Origin: Microcaldota archaeon
GTDB taxonomy: Archaea; Micrarchaeota; Micrarchaeia; Anstonellales; JAGGTN01
Assembly: GCA_021163645.1 (NCBI GenBank)
Contig: JAGGTN010000040.1
Span: 1 to 32,919, forward strand
DNA length: 32,919 bases
Direction of reading: 5' to 3'
Shown: one piece after another, positions 141-17,934 of the stretch
How the letters are laid out: every line of letters begins with the position of its first letter
Numbering within the stretch: the first letter of the stretch is position 1
Made by a program: the position numbers and the translations under genes
Notes under the pieces: model-generated
What the model saw: the letters and a program-made list of their open reading frames with translations, nothing else
What the model was told of the DNA's origin: nothing
Database searches by the model: none

Positions 141-246
141 AGGCTATGTTAATCCATAGCTTTCTCTGAAAACTGCATAAGCAGTTCGTTGAGTGGGCTT
201 AAAACCAGCCACCGTTAATATTCGTATGATAGCCCACACAGGTGGC
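141..246 (+). ncRNA. Structured 5' leader of the S-layer mRNA: two hairpins plus an interleaved helix pair (pseudoknot candidate)
   Basis: Hairpin 143-148/155-160 (GCTATG/CATAGC), hairpin 171-176/181-186 (AACTGC/GCAGTT), helix 193-199/231-237 (GTGGGCT/AGCCCAC) interleaved with 208-213/241-246 (GCCACC/GGTGGC). Confidence 0.55.
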
Positions 247-266
247 ATGAAAAATGAGGTGAGTAA

Positions 267-3230
267 ATGAAAGGATTGAATGTAAAGAAAATCGCCGCAT
301 TGGCTGCGGGCGCTTTATTTATTGGTAGTGCAGCAGTTGCAGCTGGCGTGATATTCGAAGACACACAGTTGGTTAGCGACCAAGGCATACCTCAGGCAAC
401 AGTTATCGTCGGTAGTAATGCGATGGTATCTGATGGTATTGCTGCAGGTAGGATCGCTGCTAAGTTGGCTTCCGAATCATACAAGGAAATGACATACACA
501 GCAACAACAGCAGGAGCTGGCACATGCACACCAGTAACAACAGGCAATGAGACAGCTGGCACATGCCCAATAACTGATGAATCAGTTACCTTGAAGATTA
601 CTAGCCCAGGGATTAGCGGAGTGACCACATTTAAGACATTGATACATGACTATATTGATAAAGACCTTGAAAACAGGTATAATGATGGGTCAAGCGATAA
701 ATATAATTGCAATACAGATGACTCTGATGATGCATCTCCATTCACAGAAGGGTCTGGGACCTGTTCTCCTGACGAAAGGAAGATGCACAGAATAGATGGA
801 AATGACTTTACACCCTTTGCACAGAAGACAATCACAGATAACCAAGGAGGAGGTACATACAAAGAAGAACAATACGCTTGGATAAAGGGGGATACAGAAT
901 ATGATGGCACCAGTGCTGTTGTTGGAAAAATAGATGGATTTGGATATTCAGTTAAATTCTCAGATCCATATACAGGTATTCCATTGTGTTCTGATGACCA
1001 AGACGGAGATAACAATTGGGCTGATTGTTATTCTGGTGGAGATGTTGCAAATGACGATTACAGAACAGATAATCACAGAGTAGAGATAAGCTTCTTAGGA
1101 TCTGACAATTGGGTTATTACAGAATTGTCACCACCCTCAGGAACTTTGGATTCTGAAGATAAACTCAAAGAAGGAGGCACTGTTAAGTTGGCAAAAGAAT
1201 CTAATTGGGGCGTCCTTGATATTGGTGATTCATTAACAAGCGGAAATTATAAAATTACCTTAGACGATATTTCAACAGCAGTCGGATCAGGTAATGATCA
1301 TCCAGCCATTATATCAATATATGATACAACCACAGGTGAAAAATTGAAACAAAACCAGATAAACCCAACTGAAACGAAAAAGATTACATTACCAACAGGA
1401 GATACATTATCAATCCATGTCTATGAGACAGCACCAGGTTATACATTGACAAGTAAATGGGCAGAAATGGCTGTATATGAAAATGAGATTACAATTAACG
1501 GAGACGGTGGAAAAATAACAGGCACATCTGATGATACCAGTAATAAAAAATACAAAGCATATATCTATTGGAAGAATAAAGATGCAGATGCAACAGCCAA
1601 TGATATAGATACAATAAGAGCAATAACAATATGGAATGATGACACTGATGTTACTTTGAATGAAGGAGATACTTATCCAATGATGGCTGGTGGGAATCTA
1701 GATGCTTTCCAATTGACTTATGAAGGATTAGAATCTGCCGATATGGATTCACTTAAGTTTGACATGAAAGATTACAGTAAAGGAATGGACAGTTTAACCA
1801 TCTGTGGAAGTTCTTCAGTAACAGGAGGATATGATGAAATGACTGGTGCATCAACTTACGGGTTAAGTATGGACCTTTCATCAGCTGATAAGATATCTTA
1901 TGTAAAAGTAACAACAGAAAAGAATAACGGCTTCAGGATCGGAGGATATTCTGGTGATTCTTTGTACTACATCTTAGACGGCTATGGTGAAAACAGAGCA
2001 GGAGCAATATCAAGTACAGGTACAACTGCTGGTGGTGATAGATATGTTTGTATCACTAATGCTGGAACTGCCCCTAGTGATGACTATTACAATGGATGGA
2101 GACTATGGTGGGATCATGATGATGATGGTGACATAGAGTCCACCGAGTATTATTCTGTTTCAGATACAGAAGGAACTCCTTCAACAGATTGTGCTGGTGG
2201 AGAAACAGAGTTAATATTAAGTAGTACTGTATCTGGTGTTGCAGGCACAGGTTCATTTGTCCTAGGTCCAAAAGCAGGTGACTTATTCATATACAAGGAT
2301 ACAAATGATTGTTGGATGCCAGTAGATGACGGAACTTCTACAAGCGATATTGAATATAAGGGTGCAGGTAATTATGTATCTGGTGCTTCTGGATATGGAT
2401 ATATGAAGTTTGCAATAGATGCTGCTGATTATTCAGCAACATTGGCCACATTTGATATCTATGAAGATGCAGGCAAATGGACTGATGGAACCACGACAAC
2501 AGATCATGCACAAGATTCAATCGAATTCGTAGGTGAATTATCTTCTGGTGATTGGAGATTCGCAAGTGCTACAGGCGTAGATGATGACAAAGCAAAATAT
2601 GGATGGACTGATGGATCAACTACATCAACTGAAGAAGAGGACTTTATCACAGAGAGAGGCTCTGTGTTTGAGGATTTGGGTGATGAGAGATATTATTTCT
2701 CTATAGCACCTAAAGTACTTGAAGCACAATATACATACACGAATGCAGGAGAAGAAGCAGAGCCAAACACAAAAGAATTGATAATGCATGAAGGAGATAC
2801 AGAAACAATCGGCGATACCACAATAGAAGTAGAGTCAATCGATGAGGAAGTTGGTGCATGCACAACAACAGGAACAGGTGCAGCATCTTGCATGTATGAT
2901 GAAGGCAGTGTAACTGGAGCTATACAAGCACCAGACGGAACAACAATGAGTTCATTAACAGCTATGACACCTGGTTCAGTCAATCCAAGCACTCTTATCA
3001 AATTGGATAAGGATGCTATGAATGATGCTGTATTCATATCAGTCGGTGGACCGGCTGTTAATGAAGTAACAGCAAGGGAATTGACTGGTGCTAATGCAAT
3101 CGATTTCAATACAGAGAATGTCGTCACTAAACAGATATCCCAGGGTAAGATCATCGTTGCTGGTCTTACAGCACAGGATACATTGACAGCAGCTGACCAG
3201 TTCATAGCACAACTACAAAGGACTGAATAA
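267..3230 (+). CDS. S-layer protein (Methanococcus-type family, secreted)
   Basis: 987 aa; signal-peptide-like N-terminus; VIVGSNAMVSDGIAAGRIAAKLAS near the N-terminus and KQISQGKIIVAGLTAQDTLTAADQFIAQL at the C-terminus as in archaeal S-layer proteins; SD-like GAGGTGA upstream. Confidence 0.85.
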   Translation: MKGLNVKKIAALAAGALFIGSAAVAAGVIFEDTQLVSDQGIPQATVIVGSNAMVSDGIAAGRIAAKLASESYKEMTYTATTAGAGTCTPVTTGNETAGTCPITDESVTLKITSPGISGVTTFKTLIHDYIDKDLENRYNDGSSDKYNCNTDDSDDASPFTEGSGTCSPDERKMHRIDGNDFTPFAQKTITDNQGGGTYKEEQYAWIKGDTEYDGTSAVVGKIDGFGYSVKFSDPYTGIPLCSDDQDGDNNWADCYSGGDVANDDYRTDNHRVEISFLGSDNWVITELSPPSGTLDSEDKLKEGGTVKLAKESNWGVLDIGDSLTSGNYKITLDDISTAVGSGNDHPAIISIYDTTTGEKLKQNQINPTETKKITLPTGDTLSIHVYETAPGYTLTSKWAEMAVYENEITINGDGGKITGTSDDTSNKKYKAYIYWKNKDADATANDIDTIRAITIWNDDTDVTLNEGDTYPMMAGGNLDAFQLTYEGLESADMDSLKFDMKDYSKGMDSLTICGSSSVTGGYDEMTGASTYGLSMDLSSADKISYVKVTTEKNNGFRIGGYSGDSLYYILDGYGENRAGAISSTGTTAGGDRYVCITNAGTAPSDDYYNGWRLWWDHDDDGDIESTEYYSVSDTEGTPSTDCAGGETELILSSTVSGVAGTGSFVLGPKAGDLFIYKDTNDCWMPVDDGTSTSDIEYKGAGNYVSGASGYGYMKFAIDAADYSATLATFDIYEDAGKWTDGTTTTDHAQDSIEFVGELSSGDWRFASATGVDDDKAKYGWTDGSTTSTEEEDFITERGSVFEDLGDERYYFSIAPKVLEAQYTYTNAGEEAEPNTKELIMHEGDTETIGDTTIEVESIDEEVGACTTTGTGAASCMYDEGSVTGAIQAPDGTTMSSLTAMTPGSVNPSTLIKLDKDAMNDAVFISVGGPAVNEVTARELTGANAIDFNTENVVTKQISQGKIIVAGLTAQDTLTAADQFIAQLQRTE

Positions 3231-3412: not shown

Positions 3413-3625
3413 ATGACTTATGTTAATACAGAGGAAAAAACATTAACAAAAATGGTTTCTATTTTAGAGAGAATCGAAGAACGAATTTCTGCAATAGAGT
3501 ATGCATTACTAGATCTGGAAGAACTCCCAGAAAAGGAGCTCAAAGAATTGGAAAAAATAGAAACAGAAATGAAAAAAGGTAAATATTATTCAGTGAAGGA
3601 TTTAAAGAGGGTATGGAATGTTTGA
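3413..3625 (+). CDS. Small antitoxin-like protein (partner of the RelE-like remnant)
   Basis: 70 aa, charged helical protein whose stop overlaps the start of the downstream RelE-like reading frame (ATGTTTGA). Confidence 0.5.
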   Translation: MTYVNTEEKTLTKMVSILERIEERISAIEYALLDLEELPEKELKELEKIETEMKKGKYYSVKDLKRVWNV

Positions 3626-3861
3626 CGTCCACATTTCAGAAAAAATATATTCACAAAATCTTCCAAATTCTGTGAAAAAAAAGCTCTTTGGAATAATAGA
3701 TACAATCAAGAAAGATCCCATACCTGCAAGAAGATACAATATTATGAAAATAAAGAATCACGAAGGAATGTATAGGTGTTGATTTTTATAATAAGATTAT
3801 TCGCCTATTAGATCTCACTAGAAGGAAAGAATCAACTTATAAGAAGATACATACAAAATAA
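3618..3861 (+). pseudogene. RelE/ParE-family toxin, frameshifted and internally deleted
   Basis: Frame 1: MFDVHISEKIYSQNLPNSVKKKLFGIIDTIKKDPIPARRYNIMKIKNHEGMYRC*; other frame continues VDFYNKIIRLLDLTRRKESTYKKIHTK*; the segment between the YR motif and the next strand is missing. Confidence 0.65.
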
Positions 3862-5912: not shown

Positions 5913-5952
5913 ATTTCACCAATCTTATATATATGTATAAGTTAGGTGAAAT
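5913..5952. promoter_or_regulatory. Long imperfect dyad covering the TATA-like region and SD of the AbiEii-like gene
   Basis: ATTTCACCAATCTTATA (5913-5929) and TATAAGTTAGGTGAAAT (5936-5952) are inverted repeats matching at 15 of 17 positions, 6-nt spacer. Confidence 0.6.
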
Positions 5953-5953
5953 C

Positions 5954-6607
5954 ATGAAACTGAGGATTATTGACAAGCTTAAAAAAAGAAGACATAAAGA
6001 TATTGCTTTGGTTCAAGATACTCTTATGGATATAATCTATGATGTATTCCCAAAAGCAATATTACATGGAGGCACAGCTATCTGGAGATGTTATGGAGGG
6101 AATAGGTTTTCTGAAGATATTGATATCTACCTGGATAAAAGTGATTTAAAAAAGGTAAAACTCTTTAAACAAAAGGCAAAACAAAGAAAATTAGATATTA
6201 AAAAGTTCAAAACGACGGCCGATACAGTTTTTTCAAAATTCTCTTTCAAAGGGATAGAGGTAAGATTCGAAGCTTCTTTCTTAAAGGTAAGAAGTAAAGA
6301 TATCGTGATCAAACCATATGAGACGAGCGATGGAAACTATATCAATGTATTTACTCTAAGCCCAGAAAGCTTGATAAAAGAAAAAGTGAATACATATCTT
6401 TCTAGATTACTAGTTAGGGACTTATACGACATATATATTCTTCTGAAACATGTTGAGAATAAAAATAAGGTTGGGTCTTATCTGAAGAGATTGTTATCAA
6501 AATACAAAAAACCAAAAGACGAAAAGATATTAAAAGCATTGGTATTTGTTGGTGCAGTACCAACACCTCAGCAGATATTAAAGGAGGTGAATAGATGGGT
6601 AAGATAA
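5954..6607 (+). CDS. AbiEii/AbiGii-type nucleotidyltransferase (toxin-like)
   Basis: HGGTAIWRCYGGNRFSEDIDIYL nucleotidyltransferase motif; ATG at 5954 preceded by GGTGA. ORF track starts upstream at 5933. Confidence 0.75.
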   Translation: MKLRIIDKLKKRRHKDIALVQDTLMDIIYDVFPKAILHGGTAIWRCYGGNRFSEDIDIYLDKSDLKKVKLFKQKAKQRKLDIKKFKTTADTVFSKFSFKGIEVRFEASFLKVRSKDIVIKPYETSDGNYINVFTLSPESLIKEKVNTYLSRLLVRDLYDIYILLKHVENKNKVGSYLKRLLSKYKKPKDEKILKALVFVGAVPTPQQILKEVNRWVR

Positions 6608-7197
6608 AATATCTAAATGAAGTAAAAACCTTCATCCTCAAAGGTAAAGCTTTCAATGTAAAAGATATAAAAAGATTCCTGATATCAAAACAAGCAAATC
6701 CAGATTATGCTTACTCTATAATACATAACATGATGAAAAAAGGGCATATCCACAGGATTACAAAAGGATATTATAGCAGATTTGATGACCCTATGATAAT
6801 AACTTATTGCATAAAACCATCATACATCGGATTAGAAAATGCACTCTCAATACATGGTTTATGGGAACAGGAATCTAACGTAGTCCTAATAACACCTAGG
6901 AGAATAAGATTTGGGATAAGAAAAATATTCAATACAAATGTCATTATCCACCATATTAATAAGAAATATTTTTTCGGTTATGATTACATAGATTATTACG
7001 ATTTAAAAATACCAGTAAGTGATACAGAAAAAACATTTATAGATTGGATTTATTATCACAACAAAATGAACATAAAATTACTAAATGATTTCATAGATAA
7101 GATAGATAGAAAAAAACTAAATAAATATTTAAAAAACTATGATAAAAAATTTGCGGAAAAGGTTCAATCCGTACTAAAACATAAAAACAATAGGTGA
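6595..7197 (+). CDS. AbiEi-like antitoxin/transcriptional regulator
   Basis: 200 aa, N-terminal wHTH-like region then PSYIGLENALSIHGL and SDTEKTFIDWIYY motifs typical of AbiEi-like proteins; overlaps the preceding gene by 13 nt. Confidence 0.65.
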   Translation: MGKIKYLNEVKTFILKGKAFNVKDIKRFLISKQANPDYAYSIIHNMMKKGHIHRITKGYYSRFDDPMIITYCIKPSYIGLENALSIHGLWEQESNVVLITPRRIRFGIRKIFNTNVIIHHINKKYFFGYDYIDYYDLKIPVSDTEKTFIDWIYYHNKMNIKLLNDFIDKIDRKKLNKYLKNYDKKFAEKVQSVLKHKNNR

Positions 7198-17825: not shown

Positions 17826-17934
17826 TGGACCTGCCGGGATTCGAACCCGGAGTCTTCGACTTTTCCTCATTCTCTTTATAACAAACCAAAGAGAACGTTG
17901 CGAAGCCGACGCCCTACCATTAGGCCACAGGCCC
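17826..17934 (-). tRNA. tRNA-Ala(CGC) with a 37-nt intron at 37/38 (17862-17898)
   Basis: Mature: GGGCCTG TG GCCT AATGGTA GGGC G TCGGC TTCGCAA GTCGA AGACT CCGGG TTCGAAT CCCGG CAGGTCC A; G3:U70, A73; 3-4-3 BHB geometry with inner 10-bp helix CGTTCTCTTT/AAAGAGAATG. Confidence 0.9.

Follow-up and report, generated by a model that had tools for sequence, protein, structure and literature searches.

The gene for the S-layer protein of a Micrarchaeota genome is preceded by an untranslated leader in which two interleaved helices form an H-type pseudoknot, and this pseudoknot is preserved in evolution by matched mutations. Its link to the S-layer gene is near-exclusive, and extends over several orders of Micrarchaeota. 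The S-layer protein is the main protein of the envelope, and in DPANN episymbionts it is probably one of the structures through which the cell touches its host. To our knowledge, only a small number of structurally conserved 5' leaders have been described in archaea.

The S-layer gene and its leader

The window (the whole stretch of 32,919 nucleotides that was analysed) corresponds to contig 44 of an archaeal genome of 895 kb. The S-layer protein gene (987 aa, with a match to Pfam PF05124, S_layer_C) occupies positions 267-3230 and, like all the leader features given below, lies on the plus strand. A TATA-like box, anticipated at about 108-117, is read from the sequence as TTTATATA at 106-113, with an A-rich stretch immediately 5' of it as a possible BRE. 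The transcription start expected from this box would give a 5' untranslated leader of about 133 nt (134-266). The original prediction required a transcription start no further downstream than about position 195, and the start predicted here, at about 134, lies upstream of the pseudoknot as required.

The leader opens with two hairpins, both of which had been proposed from the sequence and have the expected complementarities. The first (138-165) has a core of 143-148 paired with 155-160 plus additional pairs, with counterparts in most leaders, while the second (171-186), in which AACTGC pairs with GCAGTT (171-176/181-186), is indicated by sequence, folding and counterparts in relatives. The two helices of the pseudoknot follow, present and interlocked as claimed: in P1, GTGGGCT (193-199) pairs with AGCCCAC (231-237), and in P2, GCCACC (208-213) pairs with GGTGGC (241-246), both pairings being conserved. 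The GGG(C) core of the P1 5' strand is invariant wherever P1 could be anchored. A conserved loop core, GTTAATATTCGT (214-225), follows the P2 5' strand, and loop 3 (ACA, 238-240), A-rich in relatives as a rule, separates the two 3' strands. The core P2 strand ends 20 nt 5' of the start codon, and the Shine-Dalgarno sequence (SD), GAGGTGA, lies between them in neither helix, at 256-262, one base away from the position first assigned to it (255-261).

Even with the pseudoknot left out, the 129-nt leader folds more stably than its shuffles (z -2.25), and an interleaved helix pair of equal strength arises in 12 of 1000 dinucleotide shuffles of positions 141-262. Taken alone, the window therefore offers modest evidence, and it is the comparison with orthologues that decides.

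Several further observations were made in the window. A seven-codon ATG ORF (MKNEVSK) is found at 247-270, its TGA stop overlapping the S-layer start (ATGA). Two short ORFs at 3415-3860 look toxin-antitoxin-like by eye, the second of them, RelE/ParE-like, appearing to be frameshifted. At 5933-7197, an AbiEii-like nucleotidyltransferase (PF08843) overlaps a 200-aa ORF with no Pfam match, possibly a type IV toxin-antitoxin arrangement. Finally, a tRNA gene on the minus strand (17826-17934) probably contains an intron, given its length of 109 nt.

Compensatory evolution, distribution and loss

The upstream regions of 30 S-layer genes from the order of the window, its own included, were collected, and 21 of them share one order of elements: P1 5' strand (GGG), loop 1, P2 5' strand, middle loop, P1 3' strand, short loop, P2 3' strand, SD and start codon. 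In these 21 leaders the middle loop mostly opens with GNUAA, and the short loop before the P2 3' strand is often A-rich. Canonical pairing holds for the six core pairs of P2 in 126/126 cells, with several pair types per position, and in 341/342 cells when 57 leaders are considered, the helices in each sequence having been located by pairing. As regards P1, the GGG:CCC core is invariant and the flanking pairs covary in the 21 leaders; a clear GGG:CCC P1 is missing in 8 of the 57.

The relatedness of the sequences was controlled by means of a FastTree phylogeny of the S-layer proteins (50 tips), on which changes were counted by the Fitch method. The P2 core pairs have undergone 27 independent compensatory changes on both sides, with a single break, and the P1 pairs (offsets -1 to +4) 13 such changes, with five breaks, while mis-registered controls gave 0-4 compensatory changes for P2 and 0-1 for P1, together with numerous breaks. 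Since the variable length of loop 1 misplaced P1 in the MAFFT alignment, this helix was tested on anchored columns and on an alignment from which loop 1 had been excised; shuffle and slide controls agree for P2 and, in the latter alignment, for P1. Both helices thus exhibit covariation above a relatedness-aware control, as is expected of a conserved structured RNA. Compensatory changes in both interleaved helices had been set beforehand as the test of the original prediction; the outcome in the orthologous leaders is strongly positive, and they also support its claim that the S-layer gene has a structured, pseudoknotted leader.

The distribution of the element was established with R1, a covariance model built from the P2 helix together with the conserved sequence. 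R1 matches were found in 47 of the 84 genomes of the order and in 60 of the 303 Micrarchaeota genomes of the class, at about one match per genome and extending to other orders of the class; a phylum-wide search gave identical numbers of genomes and matches. Among the 59 matches examined, 57 lie directly 5' of an S-layer start codon, at a distance of 11-61 nt. At least 58 genomes of the phylum Micrarchaeota have the pseudoknot ahead of an S-layer gene, and two of them (G066 and G051) have two S-layer copies each, both preceded by it. The two other matches examined, in G257 and G218, both inside ATPase coding sequence, were rejected as false. In the genome of the window no second R1 match was obtained, even at E<=10.

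Searching the named genomes with the single protein of the window retrieved no relatives, whereas an alignment query of S-layer proteins did; the relatives mostly carry labels of Candidatus Micrarchaeota or close kin, and include Ca. Fermentimicrarchaeum limneticum (CP058998) and a Ca. Burarchaeum MAG. In 54 of the 77 named S-layer loci the element scores at the expected place, and across the 372 kb of these loci there is one further match only (E 0.78). At least two more loci (L142 and L158) have a pseudoknot visible by eye. A search for the element in viral contigs was also made and its yield discarded: loose patterns gave 24 stretches, and the scores that the model assigned to them were close to chance (best 19.5 bits, E 0.011).

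The element is missing in 17 of the 74 S-layer genes placed on a protein tree, and is therefore not indispensable for an S-layer. Its presence and absence require seven changes on this tree, against a mean of 15.6 and a minimum of 10 when shuffled. It is missing from a divergent clade (L162-L168 with L149 and L150), as well as from L127, L138, L141 and L148, whose leaders are different and hairpin-like. The pattern fits an early origin in a large clade followed by several losses, on a tree rooted at the midpoint and hence of uncertain root. Ahead of the S-layer start at 2001, the last four loci share a stretch that looks like a hairpin (GGAGUGAGGCUAAGCCAUAGCCUUCUCC and variants) and partly resembles the first hairpin of the window (143-165). 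Among paralogous S-layer genes, one copy can lack the pseudoknot leader: L129 in T2_metabat1_scaf2bin.174, which also has L107, and L119 in Sv348, which also has L100 and L109. These copies suggest that S-layer paralogues are under different control.

Conserved loop, variable surroundings and known RNA families

The loop core of 12 nt between the strands has the consensus GNUAAUNNUUNU across the family. G1 is conserved in 52, U9 in 57 and U12 in 51 of the 57 leaders, these three columns being free, while U3, A4 and A/G5 were fixed by the loop anchor and are partly conserved by construction. Conserved unpaired nucleotides, a further mark of conserved structured RNAs, are thus present. In 41 of 57 leaders, loop G1 stands opposite an A that immediately precedes the P2 3' strand (A240 in the window), and the two likely form a sheared G.A pair capping P2. 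The middle loop, from the P2 5' strand to the P1 3' strand, mostly measures about 14-22 nt and is far longer where insertions occur; in several species large hairpins are inserted behind the loop core. Conservation of a core outside the helices, with tolerance of large insertions behind it, is what would be expected of a recognition loop. Insertions of the middle loop, several of them hairpins, were seen at L142, L165 and L093 and in G001 (L057), G068 (L067) and G014 (L075), and wherever the conserved core was read, they follow it.

The surroundings of the pseudoknot are more variable. The SD usually lies between P2 and the start codon, and the distance from the end of the P2 core to the start codon has a median of 19 nt and a range of 5-64 nt (mostly 14-25), a variation that speaks against a rigid mechanical link with the ribosome. 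Upstream of P1, the stem-loop block has a mean folding z of -3.1, with values below -1 in 49 of 57 leaders; it consists of two simple hairpins in the window and most of family f7, and of one longer stem, sometimes k-turn-like, in other leaders, so that stability is kept while sequence and form vary by lineage. A TATA-like match, which the scan was built to seek, is found about 64-153 nt 5' of the P1 anchor in all 57 leaders, giving predicted leader lengths of about 105-227 nt in the family, compared with 133 nt in the window.

A k-turn (a three-nt bulge and tandem G.A pairs between two stems) was looked for in the leader of the window and none was found, and the strict pattern occurs in 9 of 57 leaders, against 1.5 expected from shuffles. 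K-turn-like stems (e.g. CUCC-UAU-GA-stem-GA-GGGG) were observed upstream of the pseudoknot in the f4 leaders L032-L061 (e.g. G048, G021, G030 and G033) and in f13 (G089-G093, L082-L086); they may be L7Ae sites. The L7Ae/k-turn leaders of archaeal mRNAs are 5' structures that regulate translation (PMC5539422). The likeness to them consists in the archaeal 5' structure and in the k-turn-like stems of some relatives; the difference is that neither the leader of the window nor the pseudoknot itself contains a k-turn.

Several riboswitch classes, SAM-II, preQ1, fluoride and guanidine-III among them, are compact H-type pseudoknots with conserved loop nucleotides by the ribosome-binding site. The S-layer element is likewise a small pseudoknot with conserved loop nucleotides adjoining that site, and differs from them in the absence of an Rfam match, in its long middle loop and in its single target gene. 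With Rfam 15, which includes the known riboswitches and ribozymes, no match at the gathering threshold was obtained in the leader of the window or in those at the loci of 13 relatives, and permissive thresholds yielded only chance matches in leaders.

In the literature the SLH motif comes closest, a bacterial candidate riboswitch upstream of genes with S-layer-homology domains (Stav et al. 2019, PMC6429828), which is likewise a candidate structured RNA 5' of cell-surface-layer genes. It belongs to Synergistaceae, Clostridia and Negativicutes and to SLH-domain genes, whereas the element described here is archaeal and precedes genes of the PF05124 type; the two are set apart by description and by the lack of an Rfam match. 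A working analogy is provided by Lactobacillus acidophilus, in which slpA, the gene for a highly abundant S-layer protein, has a structured untranslated leader; the stem-loop of this leader is suggested to shield the mRNA (cited in PMC6482533). It is a large bacterial stem-loop, for which the cited passage describes no family-wide covarying pseudoknot or conserved loop.

The literature search, which covered openly accessible published papers, returned no RNA element described for archaeal S-layer genes, no leader of conserved structure for DPANN and no paper joining riboswitches and Micrarchaeota, and the text of the 104-motif survey contains no S-layer motif. Given the lack of both an Rfam match and a description in the literature searched, the pseudoknot is rated as a new RNA family among the structured cis-acting mRNA leaders, and not as a categorically new kind of system.

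Possible role in the control of S-layer synthesis

The conserved, family-specific pseudoknot is probably a cis-acting element of post-transcriptional control, the loop and core of which would be read by a trans-acting partner. The S-layer mRNA carries one or two stable stem-loops near its predicted 5' end, then the P1/P2 pseudoknot, and then an SD outside the helices. Judging from position and analogy, such a leader would set how much of the main surface protein the cell makes, acting on the stability of the mRNA and on the initiation of translation. It would shield the 5' end and give order to the stretch that immediately precedes the ribosome-binding site, and does not appear to work by hiding the SD. 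The conservation of loop and helix core suggests a specific partner, most likely a protein, which would recognise the invariant GGG:CCC core together with the GNUAAUNNUUNU loop.

The leader had also been thought to hold a built-in alternative fold, in which the same strands re-pair as two local hairpins (193-196/209-212 and 234-237/242-245), giving two mutually exclusive states before the SD. As a two-state switch, it would shut translation either by this re-pairing or by capture of the SD by the P2 5' strand. The alternative pairs do exist in the window, where they are jointly weaker (-8.0 kcal/mol) than P1 alone (-11.3 kcal/mol), yet they are unconserved, with typically 2-3 of 5 and 1-3 of 4 canonical across 21 orthologues. 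The pseudoknot-free fold of the window does pair GCCACC near the SD, and imposing the pseudoknot there raises SD accessibility from 0.28 to 0.82, so that a lineage-specific effect is possible. It is not a feature of the family: when leaders were folded with the pseudoknot imposed or removed, in a model limited to nested folding, mean SD accessibility was 0.53 with it formed and 0.47 without, single leaders shifting either way, and when pairing of the P2 3' strand was prevented, the SD paired mainly (>0.5) with the P2 5' strand in 3 of 55 leaders only. Since formation of the pseudoknot neither hides nor releases the SD in a systematic way, a switch of this kind is very improbable. Still less credible, to the point of being nearly dismissed, is a coding explanation, by a leader peptide or a short upstream ORF overlapping the S-layer start: the seven-codon ORF of the window and the preference of the loop for U at positions 3, 6, 9 and 12 speak for it, while the three frames are open in 39, 30 and 0 of 57 relatives, none in all, and the spacing between loop and P2 strand is no fixed multiple of three.

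The compact H-type fold, the strong conservation of its loop, the invariant GGG:CCC core and the position immediately 5' of the ribosome-binding site might also suit an aptamer, that is, a new class of compact pseudoknot riboswitch. Its ligand would be an ion or small molecule connected with the cell envelope, for example a metal or a glycan precursor. We regard an aptamer as rather unlikely, given that one kind of target gene is served in the whole phylum, while a riboswitch class as a rule controls several genes in one pathway, that no Rfam riboswitch family matches, and that no conserved expression platform was found in which a masked SD excludes the aptamer, mean SD accessibility being unchanged. 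It is also unlikely that the leader is a purely mechanical 5' stabiliser with no specific partner, for which any stable structure would suffice. The upstream stem-loops, which remain stable while changing in sequence and form between lineages, would suit such a role, as would the protection suggested for the structured bacterial S-layer leader (PMC6482533); a generic stabiliser would, nevertheless, have no need of a loop sequence and a GGG:CCC core conserved across orders.

Beyond the cis-acting control element with a trans-acting partner favoured here, a more ambitious reading may be put forward tentatively: the leader could represent a dedicated class of S-layer regulatory RNA, whose pseudoknot loop binds a ligand or protein, senses the state of the cell surface or its supply, and tunes S-layer synthesis in Micrarchaeota. 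Since the element is tied to one gene over several orders, the control of S-layer synthesis becomes directly testable, and the pseudoknot is itself a well-defined RNA with which to seek whatever protein or ligand may read it.
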